Positions 15,649-25,255 of a stretch of DNA of 64,000 nt are shown piece after piece. Every line of letters starts with the position of its first letter. Position 1 is the first letter of the stretch. The DNA lies in the NCBI GenBank assembly GCA_033584155.1, contig CP138355.1, positions 4,801,501-4,865,500 on the forward strand. The letters run 5' to 3'. The notes under the pieces are model-generated. The model saw only the letters and a list, made by a program, of their open reading frames with translations, ran no database searches and had not been told where the DNA came from. The position numbers and the translations under genes are program-made. The DNA is from Candidatus Electrothrix scaldis (GTDB lineage Bacteria > Desulfobacterota > Desulfobulbia > Desulfobulbales > Desulfobulbaceae).

Positions 15649-16674
15649 ATGAAACTCACCTGCCCCCATTGCGGAGTCACAGGTTCAATTGATGATAAAT
15701 TTATCGGCAAGCAGTTAAAATGCCCCAAATGTAATGAACGCTTCACGGTAACCGAGGAAGACGCCATACAAACAGCCCCCCCTTCCTCTCCCCCACCTGT
15801 TCCACCCAAGAAATCAAATACGAGCAACTCGCTTCCCAAGCAACAGCCCTCTCAAGAAACCGAAGAGGCGGCATGTACGGGCTGCGGCAATACCTTTCCC
15901 GAAGACGAGCTCATCGAGTTAGGAGGTCGACTGATCTGTGCGACCTGCAAACCAGTAGCACTGCAAAAGCTCAAAGAAGGAGCGGTTGAGAGTGGCTCAG
16001 GTGGACTTGAATCAGGAATAGCTGGTCATTACACCTTGCAGGCTAAGGAGGTTCTCTCGGAGGCCTGGGAAAAGGTCAAGGGCTCTAAAATGACGATAGC
16101 GGGAGCCGTCTTTGCTATGTATTGCATCACCGCCCTCTTGATGTTCATCGGTGGGGCAGCCTTGAATATGTTGGGTCTTAACGGACAGAATTTGACGCTT
16201 TTTATAATCAGCCAGTTAATTCTACAGCTCGTATCTGGAGCAGTATCAGCGCTTCTATACAGTGGCCTCATGATGATGGGCGTACGACGAGCCGTGGACG
16301 AACCCATCAGCTTTTCCACGCTCTTTGACGGTTTTGACAAGGCAAAACAAATCATTATCGTTGCTTTCCTTCAAACGATCATTATTATGCTCGGATTTCT
16401 CCTCCTGGTTATACCAGGTATTTACCTCAGCATAGGATATCTCATGACCTACCCACTGATTATAGAGAAAGACCTTAGCCCTTGGGAGGCTATGGAGGCC
16501 TCGCGTAAAGCCATTCATCATCACTGGTTTCAGGTATTCGGGCTGTTCTTCGTTATGGGCCTTATTTTTATGATTTCCGCCCTTCCCTTAGGTATAGGTA
16601 CGTTCTGGACCATGCCGATGGGCATTATCATGTTCGGTATCGTCTACAGAACAATCTTTGGAACAAAAAAATAA
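15649..16674 (+). CDS. Zinc-ribbon membrane protein (MJ0042-type N-terminus)
   Basis: A 341-residue protein. MKLTCPHCGVTGSIDDKFIGKQLKCPKCNERF is a CxxC...CxxC zinc ribbon of the MJ0042 kind. After a Pro-rich linker a second CxxC pair appears (CTGCGNTF...ICATCKP). From residue 140 there are five or six membrane helices, with the pattern LLLVIPGIYLSIGYLMTYPLIIEKDLSPWEAMEASRKAIHHHW, as in DUF975 and GPDPase-type membrane domains. It opens a run of co-directional, closely spaced genes. A role in membrane assembly or envelope stress is inferred only from the MoxR-type neighbours. Confidence 0.7.
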   Translation: MKLTCPHCGVTGSIDDKFIGKQLKCPKCNERFTVTEEDAIQTAPPSSPPPVPPKKSNTSNSLPKQQPSQETEEAACTGCGNTFPEDELIELGGRLICATCKPVALQKLKEGAVESGSGGLESGIAGHYTLQAKEVLSEAWEKVKGSKMTIAGAVFAMYCITALLMFIGGAALNMLGLNGQNLTLFIISQLILQLVSGAVSALLYSGLMMMGVRRAVDEPISFSTLFDGFDKAKQIIIVAFLQTIIIMLGFLLLVIPGIYLSIGYLMTYPLIIEKDLSPWEAMEASRKAIHHHWFQVFGLFFVMGLIFMISALPLGIGTFWTMPMGIIMFGIVYRTIFGTKK

Positions 16675-18290: not shown

Positions 18291-18603
18291 TACCTCCGGA
18301 GCCTGTTTTAACCATGCAAATCGGGAGCCGGTCGCCCGTTGCCCGGAATGCAACCGTTATTTTTGCCGGGAATGCGTCAGTGATCATGATGGCCGCCTGC
18401 TCTGTTCAGCCTGTCTCCACAACACCACCGAGCATCAGGAAGAACGAAAAAGCAGCTGGCTCAAATACCTCATCCCACCGTTTCAGGTTCTCCTGGGAGT
18501 GCTGGGTGCCTGGCTGGCTTTTTATCTCCTGGCCAGCACGCTCCTCTCCATTCCTTCAACCATCCACGATGTGACCTTCCGGCATGAGCAAAAAGCACGA
18601 TGA
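18283..18603 (+). CDS. Small B-box zinc-finger protein with one membrane helix
   Basis: A 106-residue protein. ACFNHANREPVARCPECNRYFCRECVSDHDGRLLCSACL is a B-box-type zinc module closely resembling that in the 16699 gene, followed by one or two hydrophobic segments (LIPPFQVLLGVLGAWLAFYLLASTLL). It overlaps both neighbours (8 and 20 bases). Two such modules in one operon suggest a shared binding partner. Confidence 0.65.
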   Translation: MLNTSGACFNHANREPVARCPECNRYFCRECVSDHDGRLLCSACLHNTTEHQEERKSSWLKYLIPPFQVLLGVLGAWLAFYLLASTLLSIPSTIHDVTFRHEQKAR

Positions 18604-19549
18604 ACTCTTCAGCGTGAGCCATTTTCTGCTCATGGACGAGGCCTTGACTCTAGTCAGGACTGGCGGCCCAAGCGCCCTCTTCTTTTATTATCTCGGAACC
18701 CTCCCCTTTGTTGCGGCGCTGCTTGTCTTTTGGAATGATATGAGCTATTCCAGCTTTGCTGCTGAACATGCTTTGTGGACCTCCCTGCTCATGGGCATGC
18801 TCTTCTGCTGGATGAAAGGATGGCAGGCTGTCTACGGCAGAGTCCTTCATGATATTCGGCTGGGGATTACACCGCAGCTGGCAGGGCCTGCCGAGTTCTT
18901 CCGTATCTGCTTTCGCCAGGCAATGATACAGCCCTGGGGTATTTTCCTTTTCATGCTCTGCATCCCTTTGCTCTTTCTCCCCTTTCCCTGGGTGAATGCC
19001 TTTTTCCAAAATCATACCGTACTTGGGGCGGTTGCGAATAAAAAGGAACTCACCCGCCAGAGTATGGCCTTGGCAGTAAAGGAGAAATGGCAAAACTATG
19101 TAGTCATCTGGATACTCAGCCCCTGGCCCCTTTTTCTCGTCTTTCTGAGCTGCTTCGGCCTGGCTGCACTGATTATTCATTTTGGCGAGATGTATGGTAT
19201 CCGCACAGAGTTCTTCGGCGATCTTCCCTGGTTTGTCATCGGCGTGTTGCTCATCGTTGCCGGGGTCTGGCCTGCCAGCCCCTTGGGAGTAGTACTTGCT
19301 GCCAACATTCTTCTCCTCCTCATTGCCTTGCCCCACCTGATTAATATGCTCACAGGTGTGGAAACCGTCATGCTCCGTAGCGGTTTTTACTGGTTTGCCA
19401 ACACCACCAGCCTGCTGACCATCTCCTGCGGCGTATATCTCCTCCTTGACCCACTGCTCAAGGCCGCCTATACCCTGCGTTGTTTTTATGGGATGTCCTT
19501 ACGGAGCGGGACTGATTTGCTGGTTGATTTGCGATTGGCCAACAAATAA
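18584..19549 (+). CDS. Polytopic membrane protein of the MoxR/DUF58-type operon
   Basis: A 321-residue protein with about eight hydrophobic segments, e.g. SALFFYYLGTLPFVAALLVFW, GIFLFMLCIPLLFLPFPWVNAFF and ILLLLIALPHLINMLTGVETVM. It ends with SLRSGTDLLVDLRLA. A protein of this type commonly precedes the DUF4129 gene in MoxR-DUF58 operons. Here that gene lies 4.8 kb away because the CHAT gene and a RAYT element intervene. Confidence 0.6.
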   Translation: MSKKHDELFSVSHFLLMDEALTLVRTGGPSALFFYYLGTLPFVAALLVFWNDMSYSSFAAEHALWTSLLMGMLFCWMKGWQAVYGRVLHDIRLGITPQLAGPAEFFRICFRQAMIQPWGIFLFMLCIPLLFLPFPWVNAFFQNHTVLGAVANKKELTRQSMALAVKEKWQNYVVIWILSPWPLFLVFLSCFGLAALIIHFGEMYGIRTEFFGDLPWFVIGVLLIVAGVWPASPLGVVLAANILLLLIALPHLINMLTGVETVMLRSGFYWFANTTSLLTISCGVYLLLDPLLKAAYTLRCFYGMSLRSGTDLLVDLRLANK

Positions 19550-19587
19550 GATCGACCAGCCATTATTTGACCACCGGAGAACACACC

Positions 19588-22500
19588 ATGCCCGCTGAAC
19601 TGATGCTAAATTTCCCTGACCCGACGCAGGTCGCTGTTCATCTTCATGTCCCAGATGATGAATATGCGGACATGACCTCGGCCTTTGCCTTTGTCAATCC
19701 GCTCACAGACAAGGACATGGAGGAAATCCGCTGGTACCTGGAGGACTACGGCACCGGCTACCGGGCGGAACCGGATGATGAGCGGGCCAACAGGGTACGG
19801 GAGCAACTGCCCGATTGGGGAACCGCTCTGTTTAAGGCTGTATTCAAAGCGGATGATAAGATCGCTGATAAGGCTTATGAACTTTTCCGTAATTTCCGGG
19901 ACGAGGAGGAAAAAGGCCGACTGCTCACCATTGCTGCTGATCATCCGGCAGTGCTTTCGCTGCCTTGGGAGCTGCTTCGCCCAGCCAGCGGTGTTTTTCT
20001 CTTCGGTGAGACCCCGCGCATCTCCATCCGCCGTCGTCTGCCTATGGCCGGAGAGGGACGCAGGCCCCATAAGCGTAAGCCCAAGCCCGTGCTGCGCCTG
20101 CTCTTCATTGTCAGCCGCCCGGAAGATGCCGGGTTCATCAATCCCCGTACTGATCCGCAGGCTGTGCTGGATGCGCTGGAGCAACAGGAACAGCAGCGGG
20201 TGGAGGTGGAATTCCTCCGCCCGGCCACACTCTCGGCACTTGAGGAACGGCTTCGTGATGAGGATCAGCCTGCTGTGGACATCATTCATTTTGACGGCCA
20301 CGGCGTTTTTAACCGCAGCGGCAAGCTGGGCAAAGATGCGGCAAAGACGCATATCCCGGAGTACATGAAAGGACTGCTTCTTAAGGCGGAAAGCAAAGGT
20401 GAGACAACAGCGGTTCCCAAGCATACCGGCTATCTCCTCTTTGAGGATGAGCAGGGTAAAAAAGCCTTGGTGGAAGCCCGACTGCTGGGTGAGCTGTTCC
20501 ACCGCCAGCGCATCGGTCTGGTGGTGCTGTCCGCCTGTCAGTCTGCGGCAATGGATGAAGACGATGCCATGAGCAGTGTGGCAGCCTGGCTCACCCATGC
20601 CGGTATTCCCGGTGTGCTGGCGATGACGCACAGCGTTTTAGTCACCACTGCCGGACTGCTGTTTGCCCGGTTTTATCGCAGTCTGTTCAGAGGCGATCCG
20701 GTGGGCAAGGCTTTGGACGATGCCCGTGCAGCCTTGTATTTTGATCCCAAGCGGGGGGAACGGCTGCGCGGCGCAGGCGGCAATCAGAGCGTGACCCTCA
20801 AGCTGCACGACTGGTTCCTGCCTGCCCTGTATCAGACCGGCCCGAATCGTCCGCTGCTGAATCAGGATGATGCGGGCGAAGTCCCGGCACCGGACAAAAA
20901 GCATAACCTACCCAAGATGCAGGAGTCGGGTTTCTTCGGTAGAACCCGCGAACTCTGGCGGATTGAACGGGCCTTTACCGTGCATAAAACCCGCCGTTTT
21001 TCCGTTACCGGCTTCGGCGGTCAGGGCAAGACCTATCTTGCCTTGGAAACGGGATACTGGCTGCTACGCACCGGCCTGTTTCAGCGAGTCTGCTTTGTCA
21101 GTTTTTCCGGTTTCCAGGGAGTTGATCCGGTGGGTGTGACGGTCAGCACCCTGGCGACCGTGCTGGATGAAAGTCTGCCTGATGCGGAAGCTGCTGAGGC
21201 AGCTCTGAAACGGATTCCGACGCTGTTGATTCTCGACAACCTGGAGAGCTTGGCCGACGAAGCCGGTCTGCCGGAGCTGCTGATTGCGGCCACCCGCTGG
21301 TCAGAGGCCGGGGACAGTCGCGTCCTGCTCACCTCCCGCCAGCCGGATTTCAATCATCCCAACTATCGCACAGCAGGCACCTTCGAGCATCAATGCCTGC
21401 ACCTCAAGGGCTTAGGGATACAGGATGCGCTGGATTGGTTCGGCGAGCTGATGCGTTTGCCGCCGGAACCGAAATTCGGGATGCCTGAACGTAGTGCCTT
21501 GGTCAATCTGTTTGAGCAGGTGGACTTTCATCCTCTGTCCATCGGCCTGCTGGCGCAGCAGCTCAAGGAACGCCGCCCGGCGGAGTTGGGTGAGCGGCTG
21601 GAAGCCCTGCTGGAGGAGCAGCCCGCTGACCGGGAAGATCGAACCCTGCTGGCCTCGCTGGAATTGTCTTTAGAGCGACTGCCGGAGCGGTGCCGGGAGT
21701 GGCTGCCGAGGTTGGGGGTGTTTCAGGGCGGGGGATTGGAGGAGATCGTGGTGAAGGTGGCCGGACTGGAAGACTATCCCACTGAATGGTCTATTTTGCG
21801 TTTTCACCTGATGCTCTCAGGTTTAATGCAAGCAGAGCGGCTGTTAGAAGGCATCTTTCTGCGCTTCCATCCAACGTTAGCTCCAGCCTTATGGCACCAG
21901 CTTGAGAAGAAAGAGCAAGTCGAATTGCTGGAATGCTATTGCCAAATTTATTATCAGTTGTCCGGGGAGCTGTACCGCTTGGACAATAAGAGCCCTCGTG
22001 CAGCTCGCATCATTGCCCAATGCGAGCTGTCGAATTTACTGCAAGCTATCCATGCAACTTTGCAGGCAGATGGGAACAAAGAGGGAGAGGATTTTGCTAA
22101 CAGAGTTAATAAAATTCTCCGCTTTTTTGGGTTACAGCGAGATACTGAAGAATTGGTAGAGGTGGCTAATAAGGTAGACAGCACGGTTGGCTCTCAGGCA
22201 TGGTTTATCTCCCGTAGCAATTTGGGTGAGCAGCTTTTGGGTAGCGGTCAGATTATAGCAGCAACGCAGGTTTTTAAAGATATCCTTGCCGAGATTGATA
22301 AGACCCCCAGCTATAATCACTGTATTACTTTGCATAAGCTAGGTCGTTGCTGTCGTATGCAAAATCAGCTTGTTGAAGCAGAACAGTACTACCGGCAGGA
22401 ACTGGCTGAATTATCCCATTTGGAGCAGAGCGGTGGAGTGCGGCGAGTAATTGGTTCTGTTTGGACCGATTTGGCTGATGTGCTGTGTGACCAAGGCAAC

Positions 22501-23403
22501 TATATGGAGGCCAAGGTAGCTTATAAAAGAACCCTAGAGATTATGAAAGAGTTGAATGATAAGCGTAGCATTGCAGTAGTTATAGGGCAACTAGGGACCT
22601 TGGCCTATATGCAAGGTGAGCTAGCTCAAGCGGCAGAGTGGCACAAGGAATCTCTTTTTTTCTTTCAACGTATTAACGATCCTGGCATGGAGGCTGTGGC
22701 TTGGCATCAGCTTGGCATGGTCTATCAAAAGACAAAGCTTTGGCAGTTAGCGGAGCAGGCTTACCGGGAAGCTGCCCGACTGAATGAGGTGCTAGGATTG
22801 CTGGCTGGCCATAATGGGGCTGGTACTAGTTGGAATCAACTCGCTCGAATCTGCACGGCTACAGGCCGTATAGCAGAGGCAGAAAAATGGTATAGAAAGG
22901 CATTGGAAGTTCATCAAGCAATAGGCGACCAGCCTCACATTGCCTCTACCCTCAATAATCTTGCAAGCCTTATAGCTAAAGATACGGCAAGGCTAGATGA
23001 AGCTAGCGGCTTGGCCGAGGAATCTCTAGCCATTAAGAAAAAAAATGACCCGACAGCAGTAGAGATATGGAAGGCATATGAGCTGCTGGCCCGTATCGCC
23101 AGTCAACAGGACGACAGCAACCAGGCTACTACGTATCGTGCCAAGGGAAGGCAGGCGTACTTCGCCTTTCTTGGCTGGCGCCAGCAGGTTCAACAGCATG
23201 ATCCGTTGATTGCAGCTGCGGTGCAGGGTGATGATATGGAAGCTGCCTTGGTACCTTACGGTGATGAGTGGGCCAACTTGAAAGCCGCGATCCAGCGCAT
23301 CCTCAACGGTGAGCGAGATGAAGCCGTCCTGTCTGAGTCGCTGAATTACGTGGATGCCGCCATTATTCGCGTTATTCTGGAGGGCATTGCCGAACAGGAG
23401 TAG
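19588..23403 (+). CDS. CHAT protease - NB-ARC NTPase - TPR protein
   Basis: A 1271-residue STAND-type protein. Residues about 100-410 form a CHAT caspase-like domain with the dyad His238 (IIHFDGHGVF) and Cys317 (VVLSACQSA). The NTPase has Walker A GFGGQGKT at 475-482, Walker B LLILDNLE with Asp550, sensor RVLLTSRQ, and HPLSIGLLAQ. From about residue 790 there are tandem TPR units (LGEQLLGSGQIIAATQVF..., LADVLCDQGNYMEAKVAYKRTLEI, LGTLAYMQGELAQAAEWHKESL, LARICTATGRIAEAEKWYRKALEV). Known relatives are NTP-dependent sensors that release a protease, often in anti-phage or cell-suicide systems. ATG 19588 follows CCGGAGA. Base composition drops visibly from about 21.78 kb, so the sensor end may have another origin. 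No substrate gene adjoins it. Confidence 0.88.
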   Translation: MPAELMLNFPDPTQVAVHLHVPDDEYADMTSAFAFVNPLTDKDMEEIRWYLEDYGTGYRAEPDDERANRVREQLPDWGTALFKAVFKADDKIADKAYELFRNFRDEEEKGRLLTIAADHPAVLSLPWELLRPASGVFLFGETPRISIRRRLPMAGEGRRPHKRKPKPVLRLLFIVSRPEDAGFINPRTDPQAVLDALEQQEQQRVEVEFLRPATLSALEERLRDEDQPAVDIIHFDGHGVFNRSGKLGKDAAKTHIPEYMKGLLLKAESKGETTAVPKHTGYLLFEDEQGKKALVEARLLGELFHRQRIGLVVLSACQSAAMDEDDAMSSVAAWLTHAGIPGVLAMTHSVLVTTAGLLFARFYRSLFRGDPVGKALDDARAALYFDPKRGERLRGAGGNQSVTLKLHDWFLPALYQTGPNRPLLNQDDAGEVPAPDKKHNLPKMQESGFFGRTRELWRIERAFTVHKTRRFSVTGFGGQGKTYLALETGYWLLRTGLFQRVCFVSFSGFQGVDPVGVTVSTLATVLDESLPDAEAAEAALKRIPTLLILDNLESLADEAGLPELLIAATRWSEAGDSRVLLTSRQPDFNHPNYRTAGTFEHQCLHLKGLGIQDALDWFGELMRLPPEPKFGMPERSALVNLFEQVDFHPLSIGLLAQQLKERRPAELGERLEALLEEQPADREDRTLLASLELSLERLPERCREWLPRLGVFQGGGLEEIVVKVAGLEDYPTEWSILRFHLMLSGLMQAERLLEGIFLRFHPTLAPALWHQLEKKEQVELLECYCQIYYQLSGELYRLDNKSPRAARIIAQCELSNLLQAIHATLQADGNKEGEDFANRVNKILRFFGLQRDTEELVEVANKVDSTVGSQAWFISRSNLGEQLLGSGQIIAATQVFKDILAEIDKTPSYNHCITLHKLGRCCRMQNQLVEAEQYYRQELAELSHLEQSGGVRRVIGSVWTDLADVLCDQGNYMEAKVAYKRTLEIMKELNDKRSIAVVIGQLGTLAYMQGELAQAAEWHKESLFFFQRINDPGMEAVAWHQLGMVYQKTKLWQLAEQAYREAARLNEVLGLLAGHNGAGTSWNQLARICTATGRIAEAEKWYRKALEVHQAIGDQPHIASTLNNLASLIAKDTARLDEASGLAEESLAIKKKNDPTAVEIWKAYELLARIASQQDDSNQATTYRAKGRQAYFAFLGWRQQVQQHDPLIAAAVQGDDMEAALVPYGDEWANLKAAIQRILNGERDEAVLSESLNYVDAAIIRVILEGIAEQE

Positions 23404-23466
23404 GGCTGGTTCACAAACTCATATTCACCAATACGCAGAACCTCTTCCATTCCGAGGAACAAACCA

Positions 23467-23546
23467 ATGAAAATCGCAAACCCCCTGTACGATGTCGTGT
23501 TCAAATACCTGATGCAGGATATGCGGGTTGCCAAACTGGTCATATC
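23467..23546 (+). pseudogene. 5' stub of an Rpn/PD-(D/E)XK nuclease-type gene
   Basis: GAGGAACAAACCAATG opens MKIANPLYDVVFKYLMQDMRVAKLVIS, the characteristic N-terminus of the Rpn-like, PD-(D/E)XK nuclease transposase family (recombination-promoting nucleases). After about 27 codons it runs into a 9-bp tandem repeat and the RAYT element, and no later part is found. The gene was cut by the RAYT insertion or a linked deletion. Confidence 0.7.
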
Positions 23547-23573
23547 AGGCAAAAGAGGCAAAAGAGGCAAAAG
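23547..23573 (+). repeat. Tandem 9-bp repeat, three copies
   Basis: AGGCAAAAG is present three times without change. It joins the truncated nuclease gene to the left REP hairpin and probably arose by slippage at the insertion junction. Confidence 0.7.
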
Positions 23574-23649
23574 GGGACAGATTTATTTTTTACTTGGCGG
23601 TTGGCGGATAAATGAATATATTGGAAGAAAAATAAATCTGTCCCCTTTT
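23569..23649. repeat. REP-type hairpin left of the RAYT gene
   Basis: A 22-bp perfect inverted repeat (23569-23590 and 23628-23649; core GGGGACAGATTTATTTTT) with a 37-base loop. It ends six bases before the transposase start codon and is the expected substrate of RAYT enzymes. Confidence 0.8.
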
Positions 23650-23654
23650 GAAAA

Positions 23655-24347
23655 ATGCCCCGATCAGCCAGAATCATACTTCCGCATACGCCGCATCACA
23701 TTGTTCAGCGAGGACATAACCGTCAGGCTGTTTTTACTTCCGACGACGATTATAACTATTACCGGGAAAACCTTGCTTTTTTCAAAAAGGAGTTCGGCTG
23801 CCGAATATACGCCTACTGCCTGATGACCAACCATGTCCACCTCGTCATTGATCCCGGCGGAAATCCGGAATCACTCGCACTCCTGATGAAGCGGGTTGCC
23901 GGACGACAGACGAGATATATCAACAAACTGGAGAGCCGTTCAGGCAGTTTGTGGGAAGGCCGCTATAAATCCAGTATAATATCCGCCGAGGAGTATCTAC
24001 CCGCCTGCTGCCGCTATATTGAACTGAATCCCCTGCGGGCCGGAATGATCACTGATCCTGCTCAATATCAATGGTCAAGTTACAGAGCTAAAGTCTGCGG
24101 GAAAAAGGATGCGGTTGTTGATCCGCCGCCGTTTTATCTATCATCAGGAGATACTGAACAGGAACGACGAACAGCATATAAAGAATATGTTTTCGGTACG
24201 GTAGCGGCGTATGAAATCAAGCTGATACGGGAAGCATTGCAGAGGGGGCAGCTGACTGGTAGTGACCGGTTCCGGGAGGAGATTGAAAAAAAACACGGAA
24301 TTCGCATCTCAAATAAAAAGCAAGGTCGGCCCAGACGGAAAAGCTAA
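23655..24347 (+). CDS. RAYT: REP-associated tyrosine (Y1/HUH) transposase
   Basis: A 230-residue protein of the TnpA_REP branch of IS200-like transposases. MTNHVHLVI carries the HUH metal-binding histidines, and CRYIELNPLRAGMI carries the catalytic tyrosine. The opening MPRSARIILPHTPHHIVQRGHNRQAVF is typical. These enzymes cut single-stranded DNA at palindromic REP sequences, and REP-like hairpins lie on both sides. The gene looks intact. It stands between the truncated nuclease gene and the DUF4129 gene, inside an otherwise co-directional operon. Confidence 0.9.
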   Translation: MPRSARIILPHTPHHIVQRGHNRQAVFTSDDDYNYYRENLAFFKKEFGCRIYAYCLMTNHVHLVIDPGGNPESLALLMKRVAGRQTRYINKLESRSGSLWEGRYKSSIISAEEYLPACCRYIELNPLRAGMITDPAQYQWSSYRAKVCGKKDAVVDPPPFYLSSGDTEQERRTAYKEYVFGTVAAYEIKLIREALQRGQLTGSDRFREEIEKKHGIRISNKKQGRPRRKS

Positions 24348-24351
24348 GCCC

Positions 24352-24402
24352 AAAAGGGGGAAAATTGAATATATTGAAAAAAAATAAATCCGTCCCCTTT
24401 TT
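24352..24402. repeat. REP-type sequence right of the RAYT gene
   Basis: AAAAGGGGG...ATAAATCCGTCCCCTTTT is an imperfect version of the left hairpin, and its loop (TTGAATATATTGAA) resembles part of the left loop (ATGAATATATTGG). It overlaps the first 12 codons of the DUF4129 gene. Confidence 0.7.
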
Positions 24403-25255
24403 CCTCATTCTCCTCGTCGGGCTTTGCCTCCCTCAACGGGGTCAAGCTGACCAGACAGGGCAGAGTACTGTTGTTTCCGAGCCAGCACTCAACCAAGCGA
24501 TTACCGAAACCCTGCAACAACCTGAGTTTGCCTGGCGACTCCCCAGAGAGCAGGCTGCTCAAAAAGAAGGAGAATCAACAGGGATTCTGAAGCATTTCAT
24601 GGTGCCTCTACAACATTTTTTCAAAGGGATAGGAGTCTGGCTCGGGGATCTCATACAAGGCAGCGTTAATTGGCTGGGTGAAAATCTCGGTTCTCTGTTT
24701 GAATGGCTCAAGGGCCTTCTACACAACAAGCACGAGGTAAAAAAGCACCGTGATTTCAGCTTTAAGGAGTTCTCCAAACCAGCGGCCCTAATCCTGATTG
24801 TCGCCATTATCCTGATCATTCTCTTCCTTTTACTTAAGTCCTTCCGCAACCGCCCTGTTGTGGCAGAGGTCAGCTCCGAGCCCATCCAATCTGTTCCCGA
24901 TTTAGCGGCGGAGACCACCACAGCTGATCAGCTGGAGGAAGAACAATGGTTGGCCCTGGCAGGAGAAATGTTGGAAAAAAGTGAGCTCCGAATGGCACTC
25001 CGGGCCTTCTTCCTTGCCAGCCTTGCCCTGCTCGGAAGGCATCGCCTCATCAATATTGCCCCCTTTAAAACCAACCGGGACTACCTCAGAGAGCTCTCAT
25101 CACGAAGTGGGCATGCCCTGGCAGATCTTATTGAGCCTTTTCGTGAGAATATCAGACTCTTTGAAAAAAGCTGGTACGGAGACCACCAGATCAGTAATGA
25201 AATCCTGGCCCAGGTACAGGAAAACGCAAACCTGATGAGGGCGAGCTGTGGTTAA
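24365..25255 (+). CDS. DUF4129-domain membrane protein
   Basis: A 296-residue protein. The best start is TTG 24365, with GGGGG at 24356-24360 as ribosome-binding site. The N-terminus NILKKNKSVPFFLILLVGLCLPQRGQA then makes a signal sequence. A membrane helix lies near residues 138-158 (ALILIVAIILIILFLLL). The C-terminal DUF4129 block is RMALRAFFLASLALLGRHRLINIAPFKTNRDYLREL. Both start codon and ribosome-binding site lie within the right REP sequence, so the native 5' end was probably replaced by the insertion. It overlaps the DUF4350 gene by eight bases. The family belongs to MoxR operons; exact role unknown. Confidence 0.82.
   Translation: MNILKKNKSVPFFLILLVGLCLPQRGQADQTGQSTVVSEPALNQAITETLQQPEFAWRLPREQAAQKEGESTGILKHFMVPLQHFFKGIGVWLGDLIQGSVNWLGENLGSLFEWLKGLLHNKHEVKKHRDFSFKEFSKPAALILIVAIILIILFLLLKSFRNRPVVAEVSSEPIQSVPDLAAETTTADQLEEEQWLALAGEMLEKSELRMALRAFFLASLALLGRHRLINIAPFKTNRDYLRELSSRSGHALADLIEPFRENIRLFEKSWYGDHQISNEILAQVQENANLMRASCG

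Follow-up and report, generated by a model that had tools for sequence, protein, structure and literature searches.

The window analysed here, 64,000 nucleotides of Candidatus Electrothrix scaldis (contig CP138355.1, positions 4,801,501 to 4,865,500), belongs to a genome (G000) that consists of one contig of 5,089,909 bases, and carries on its plus strand, at positions 19588-23403, a gene that we call gene A. Judged by its sequence, gene A encodes an NLR-like bacterial receptor in which a CHAT cysteine protease at the N terminus is followed by a STAND NTPase as the switch and by TPRs as the C-terminal sensor. Comparison with the same locus of a second genome (G005) indicates that this sensor was very probably exchanged by recombination. 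A role of gene A in antiphage defence, as suggested by what is known of its family, is reasonably probable, and we favour as likely the joint reading of an NLR-like CHAT-STAND-TPR defence receptor with a recombinationally replaced sensor.

DNA identity between G000 and G005 was ~93% up to 21.75-21.80 kb, ~66% from there to ~23.55 kb and ~98% thereafter. Over 150 alignment columns at a time, identities were 0.88-0.98 in the CHAT-NTPase module, 0.60-0.74 in the sensor, and 0.95-1.00 in the gene for a repetitive extragenic palindrome (REP)-associated tyrosine transposase (RAYT) and beyond. Both sequences are identical at 21701-21753, with mismatches from 21754 that become dense from 21801, and the changepoint in identity falls at residue 730 (counted from an alternative upstream start in the same frame, TTG at 19567), where DNA identity drops from 0.936 to 0.665. 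We therefore place the 5' boundary of the exchanged block at 21754-21801 and the exchanged TPR sensor at 21802-23400. This break, which had escaped the original prediction of an exchanged sensor, coincides with the break in GC content within gene A. Among 61 same-locus G000-G005 gene pairs, drawn from 14 locus pairs that were selected because they hold CHAT or TPR genes, the changepoint of gene A was the strongest; the uniform divergence among relatives that would have spoken against the prediction was not found.

Synonymous divergence (dS) between the two genomes lay at 0.15-0.33 for the module and rose to 0.84-2.54 for the sensor; 11 flanking genes gave 0.04-0.56. Since synonymous sites jump too, which selection at the protein level alone would not bring about, replacement of the block is the probable cause. 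The ratio of nonsynonymous to synonymous divergence (dN/dS) in the sensor is well below 1, so the sensors remain constrained. Because a gene stub downstream of the stop codon differs between G000 and G005, the replaced block extends past the end of gene A, and its 3' limit is the left border of the RAYT element, since G005 lacks the stub that G000 carries and the 3' flank of G005 is like that of a third genome, G002. A sharp break, a raised synonymous distance and matching flanks are thus found together, and the guess of an exchanged sensor is supported by the identity profile and the jump in dS.

It is quite improbable that no exchange took place and that targeted hypermutation, or diversifying selection of great strength, made the sensor diverge where it stands. 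In favour of such divergence, the sensor trees come close to a star with long tips, G000A, G005A and G002A still group weakly (78%), and diversity-generating retroelements (DGRs) that diversify STAND sensors of multicellular bacteria are reported in PMC10907252. However, synonymous sites jump along with the rest, dN/dS in the sensor is low, the block reaches into the 3' flank, and the G005 sensor stands nearer to other clades than the G005 module does. Gene A as a DGR target was rejected: of the 6 matches to reverse transcriptase (RVT_1) in G000, the nearest is >500 kb away. That an assembly chimera in G000 or G005 mimics the exchange is extremely improbable, as both genomes are single contigs with frames intact across the break, and breaks of this kind recur in several genes as well as in other genomes.

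Architecture and base composition of the receptor gene

The frame of gene A is open from the ATG at 19588 to 23403 and yields a product of 1271 amino acids. Its CHAT domain (Pfam PF12770, E 7e-27, 95 bits against a cutoff of 24) covers residues 106-389 (19903-20754), and His238 (motif HFDGHG, 20299-20301) and Cys317 (motif ACQ, 20536-20538; both numbered from the ATG) are the same in all 9 aligned sequences. From the family we presume that these two residues form the catalytic dyad, and with a domain above cutoff and a His/Cys pair proteolysis is predicted. Between CHAT and TPRs lies a P-loop (GFGGQGKT at residue 475, Walker A at 21010-21033) within a STAND, NACHT-like NTPase domain at 21001-21336, for which the Pfam NACHT match stays below cutoff (E 3.6e-4, 20.8 bits against 26.7). 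No NB-ARC match was listed for 20887-21801 up to E 5, although Pfam NB-ARC does match other STAND genes of G000. The domain is thus not NB-ARC proper; it is, on sequence grounds, better named STAND/NACHT-like, and the label NB-ARC of the original prediction was a loose one. The predicted order of protease dyad, NTPase and TPR sensor itself was recovered, with the TPR array matching TPR_12 at E 2e-37.

Structure models fit this layout. Plant NLR resistosomes, which are NB-ARC proteins, head the fold matches of the low-confidence module model and agree with the Walker A motif and the NACHT match in suggesting a STAND receptor; SAVED-CHAT (8tl0) comes second and Avs4 (8dgf) at rank 26. The sensor model (predicted local distance difference test, pLDDT, 81) resembles TPR superhelices, including LGN TPR structures and the STAND-TPR protein 6mfv, consistent with a tandem-TPR superhelix.

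Within gene A, the best changepoint in GC content lies at 21769, where it falls from 0.592 to 0.489 (log-likelihood ratio, LLR, 20.0; the highest of 500 codon permutations reached 8.4); the changepoint at third codon positions (GC3) is 21763. This confirms the predicted drop near 21.78 kb. The unusual part, however, is the GC-rich N half (0.591; median 0.491 and maximum 0.597 among the 1.6-kb stretches of the window), while the sensor half, at 0.489, is average for the window. The fall alone is therefore insufficient to reveal an exchange, and composition was rejected as sufficient evidence. Paralogue C, another receptor gene of G000, has the same fall (0.623 to 0.508; LLR 29 against 8.9), whereas in paralogue B a fall is seen in GC3 (12.5 against 9.8) though not in overall GC (7.2 against 9.2).

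Relatives, module mobility and other receptors

Named relatives of gene A come from a Desulfobulbaceae metagenome-assembled genome and from Candidatus Electrothrix gigas. At E 1e-60 the module was found in 8 and the sensor in 7 of 257 genomes of the order, all within the family of the window. In clade A (G000, G005, G001, G002) the modules are 88-95% identical and the sensors 33-60%; in clade B (G000B, G005B, G003, G002B) the figures are 82-97% and 63-82%. The proportion of synonymous differences (pS) is higher in the sensor than in the module in 6/6 clade A and 6/6 clade B pairs (bootstrap intervals exclude 0); for the pair G026-G034, probably Electronema-like, the interval of sensor minus module includes 0. 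The original prediction proposed to look in paralogues for an N-terminal part that is conserved and a C-terminal part that varies; this pattern holds within both clades but not between gene A and paralogue B. Nearest neighbours shift along the sensors. To G005B, G003 and G026 the G005 sensor is closer in pS than its own module (three of six comparisons), and the interval straddles zero for G000B, G002B and G034. Trees and pS values were obtained without G010 and without G001D, which is broken and contains a stretch of Ns, and L079 was left out of A2. All 11 sensor matches, in 7 of the 257 genomes, adjoin a CHAT-NTPase module or are cut by a contig end; no orphan sensor cassette was found among them.

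The module is mobile as well. Between G000 and G001, dS is 0.49-0.56 in the module (lowest value in any sub-window 0.47), whereas 10 operon genes give 1.10-2.92; the module has therefore itself passed from one species to another. Near-identical modules sit in the same operon in G000 and G005 and in other surroundings in G002 and G001, which removes constant presence in the operon as an objection to the original prediction. A successful CHAT-NTPase module could have spread recently onto old resident sensors, with the module rather than the sensor moving, and the G000-G001 module (dS ~0.5) is indeed younger than the operon genes. This reading is quite improbable, because between G000 and G005 module and flanks are equally diverged and the sensor block alone is out of line.

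In the exchange that we favour, the block from ~21.76 to ~23.55 kb would have been replaced through recombination, with the 5' crossover anchored where the NTPase module ends in a conserved stretch (21590-21753). Identity between gene A and paralogue B peaks at residues 671-720 (80% at the protein and 79% at the DNA level, against 53-70% DNA identity elsewhere), and since the 5' boundary follows this stretch, it is a likely anchor for homologous recombination. Paralogue B itself was rejected as donor, as its identity to gene A is ~59% along the gene. The alleles may be drawn from a pool shared with paralogous receptors.

Other receptor genes of G000 behave similarly. The 14 locus pairs comprise three receptor loci and 11 of 19 further G000 stretches that could be paired by shared flanks (8 were unpaired). 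Besides gene A, the alignable STAND genes rank 2 (paralogue C), 4 (L180), 6 (L166), 7 (L168) and 12 (paralogue B) among the 61 pairs. All six break sharply, five near the sensor border and one at both ends, and they exceed the other 55 pairs (Mann-Whitney p 1e-4, for groups chosen afterwards). The third-ranked pair (L170_464/L191_315) is probably a start-site mismatch, and a seventh STAND pair (L171/L193) sets two genes against one and is diverged throughout. In paralogue C the last 100 residues return to 85% identity; in the comparison of this paralogue G002C gave no frame and G007C is partial. The label TIR for paralogue C and the label serA are presumptive ones, given from sequence. The gene at L180:3175-7434 (G000:C1:3149174-3153433, minus strand) has CHAT, SIR2_2 and NB-ARC domains; relative to G005, both its CHAT end and its C end have changed, but its middle part keeps 94-100% identity, a possible effector exchange. 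At one further locus, L170:1814 in G000 and L191:1767 in G005 are unrelated receptor-like TPR genes between nearly identical neighbours. TPR_12 matches number 134 in G000 and 139 in G005, many of them in genes of 400-800 amino acids without a same-locus partner. Tentatively, we consider for cable bacteria a combinatorial exchange of sensor blocks across the genome, among several STAND families and always near the NTPase-sensor border, by which a shared TPR pool would re-aim few effectors and effector domains would sometimes be swapped, as perhaps at L180; at gene A the REP/RAYT element may mark or assist the 3' boundary.

Several observations weigh against an exchanged sensor in a defence receptor. 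The structure model of the NTPase module is poor (pLDDT 52), and PADLOC returns only a generic TPR match for gene A and no match to an Avs model. In none of six comparisons is the G000 sensor closer to other clades than its module, and among the 257 genomes of the order no donor was found for it, the nearest sensor being 62% identical. Against paralogue B in the same genome, 59% identical, divergence is nearly uniform. Of the six TPR genes that lack a P-loop, two break as well (L169_2256 and L177_2479) and four do not (L164_2531, L173_2400, L174_2684 and L178_2451). In 28 of the 61 pairs, operon genes included, the changepoint is stronger than in any permutation of the same pair; breaks inside genes are therefore frequent in this set, and the receptors stand at the far end of a general tendency. 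An example is the zinc-ribbon membrane gene of the operon at 15649-16674, in which identity to G005 breaks from 0.96 to 0.73 at residue 148 of its open reading frame (ORF). The topology tests are mixed. The sensor alignment rejects the module topology (approximately unbiased, AU, test, p 0.004) and the module alignment rejects the sensor topology overwhelmingly; the sensor, however, rejects the A clade by AU only (p 0.03; Shimodaira-Hasegawa, SH, 0.37), grouping of G000A with G005A is not rejected in the sensor tree, and two topology tests on parts of the sensor reject nothing. By the pairwise homoplasy index (PHI), the module is significant (0/300), as is the sensor without G001A (0/300), with a weaker result for all sensor rows (12/300); recombination is therefore not confined to the sensor. 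As the trees are weak, the main evidence for the exchange is distance and position rather than topology.

The interrupted membrane operon

Gene A interrupts a conserved membrane operon of the MoxR type, as predicted: downstream follow genes for DUF4129, DUF4350, MoxR (AAA_3), DUF58 and SpoIIM proteins, and of the flanking ORFs, the one at 18584-19549 and the one at 24365-25255 each represent half of a single ancestral membrane/DUF4129 gene. The front half matches residues 2-316 of the 607-residue single-frame gene of G013 and is 97% identical to G005 at the protein level. The ancestral gene is present in 8 of 249 genomes of the order searched, as a single open frame in five (G013, G105, G119, G041, G064) and in two pieces in three (G000, G005, G001); neither half was found in G002 or G003 at the thresholds used. 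What separates the halves in G000 and G005 is the receptor gene together with a REP/RAYT element. In G001 (L081, L064) the ancestral gene is split almost at that codon too, with its halves on two contigs, beside genes that from their sequences are presumably Rhs-like and VapBC-like; the receptor lies on a third, short contig and adjoins an Abi_2 gene. The site at which the operon is interrupted thus seems to be one that readily takes up insertions.

The REP/RAYT element (23568-24402), overlooked in the original prediction, has palindromic ends with inverted repeats at 23568-23590/23628-23650 and 23555-23591/24379-24415. Its transposase gene (23655-24347) matches Y1_Tnp of Pfam (E 6e-15) and REP_Tyr_transpos of NCBIfam (E 6e-22, 78.1 bits against a cutoff of 80). 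The back half of the ancestral gene (24365-25255, DUF4129) now probably begins at a TTG within the right arm of the element, and its first residues would then be encoded by the end of the transposon. Between sensor and element, at 23446-23549, lies the 5' stub (ATG at 23467) mentioned above, which is absent from G005 and equals the opening 80-odd bases of the gene located after the sensor in G002. That G002 gene looks Rpn-nuclease-like, for which Pfam and NCBIfam give no support. The 3' end of the exchange would lie at the left edge of the element, which may mark or assist this boundary, be it by chance or as a cause.

Function and wider meaning

Going by family knowledge, the sensor TPRs would bind a phage or other foreign protein, the NTPase of the ligand-bound receptor would oligomerise, and the activated CHAT protease would cleave a cellular target, leading to growth stop or cell death; exchange of the sensor would then re-aim a constant effector. 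It is rather unlikely, though the most serious alternative, that gene A is a real mosaic without antiphage function, serving kin recognition, filament development or regulated proteolysis. Cable bacteria are multicellular, the only defence-model match is the generic TPR one, and non-self recognition between strains is raised in PMC10907252. On the other hand, the module adjoins Abi_2 in G001, where the split site carries the presumed Rhs-like and VapBC-like genes. Antiviral STAND proteins are also reported to share the layout (PMC10907252, PMC12931631).

A defence receptor with an exchanged sensor would resemble Avs and bNACHT proteins, which have effector, STAND NTPase and C-terminal repeat sensor in the same order and include Avs4 of the fold matches, but their effectors are nucleases or SIR2 and not CHAT proteases, and PADLOC finds no Avs in gene A. 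The CHAT fold is shared with type III CRISPR proteases (TPR-CHAT/Csx29, SAVED-CHAT with 8tl0), whereas activation of gene A probably runs through a STAND switch, and no CRISPR partner was seen in the operon. As in STAND sensors diversified by DGRs, described for multicellular bacteria in PMC10907252, a variable C-terminal sensor sits on a conserved STAND gene, but here a whole TPR block was apparently replaced, synonymous sites included, with no reverse transcriptase nearby. The main text of that study does not mention cable bacteria. Our literature search, mostly at abstract level, found no account of sensor-block exchange in bacterial STAND genes or of receptor genes of cable bacteria.

Work by Bechon et al. 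in 2024 on recognition diversity in bacterial NLR-like proteins is probably relevant and may bear on novelty. In HsdS, the specificity subunit of type I restriction systems, recombination exchanges the recognition module on a constant effector; HsdS is a DNA-binding subunit, however, and gene A a predicted protein-sensing receptor. Fungal and plant NLR repertoires likewise combine CHAT or another effector with an NTPase and TPRs and have variable repeat sensors, but gene A is bacterial, and its exchange is deduced from same-locus genome comparison.

These observations address the question of how few hard-wired bacterial receptors keep pace with changing phages. Known routes by which receptors track phages are retroelement hypermutation and the gain or loss of whole genes. 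The similar breaks in other receptor genes of G000 suggest how bacteria may re-aim their receptors. As different sensors sit at the same locus on an unchanged protease-switch module, G000 and G005 provide natural sensor-swap pairs for comparing ligand specificity. The exchange would also extend the parallel with plant and fungal NLRs, in which the sensor is the fast-changing part.

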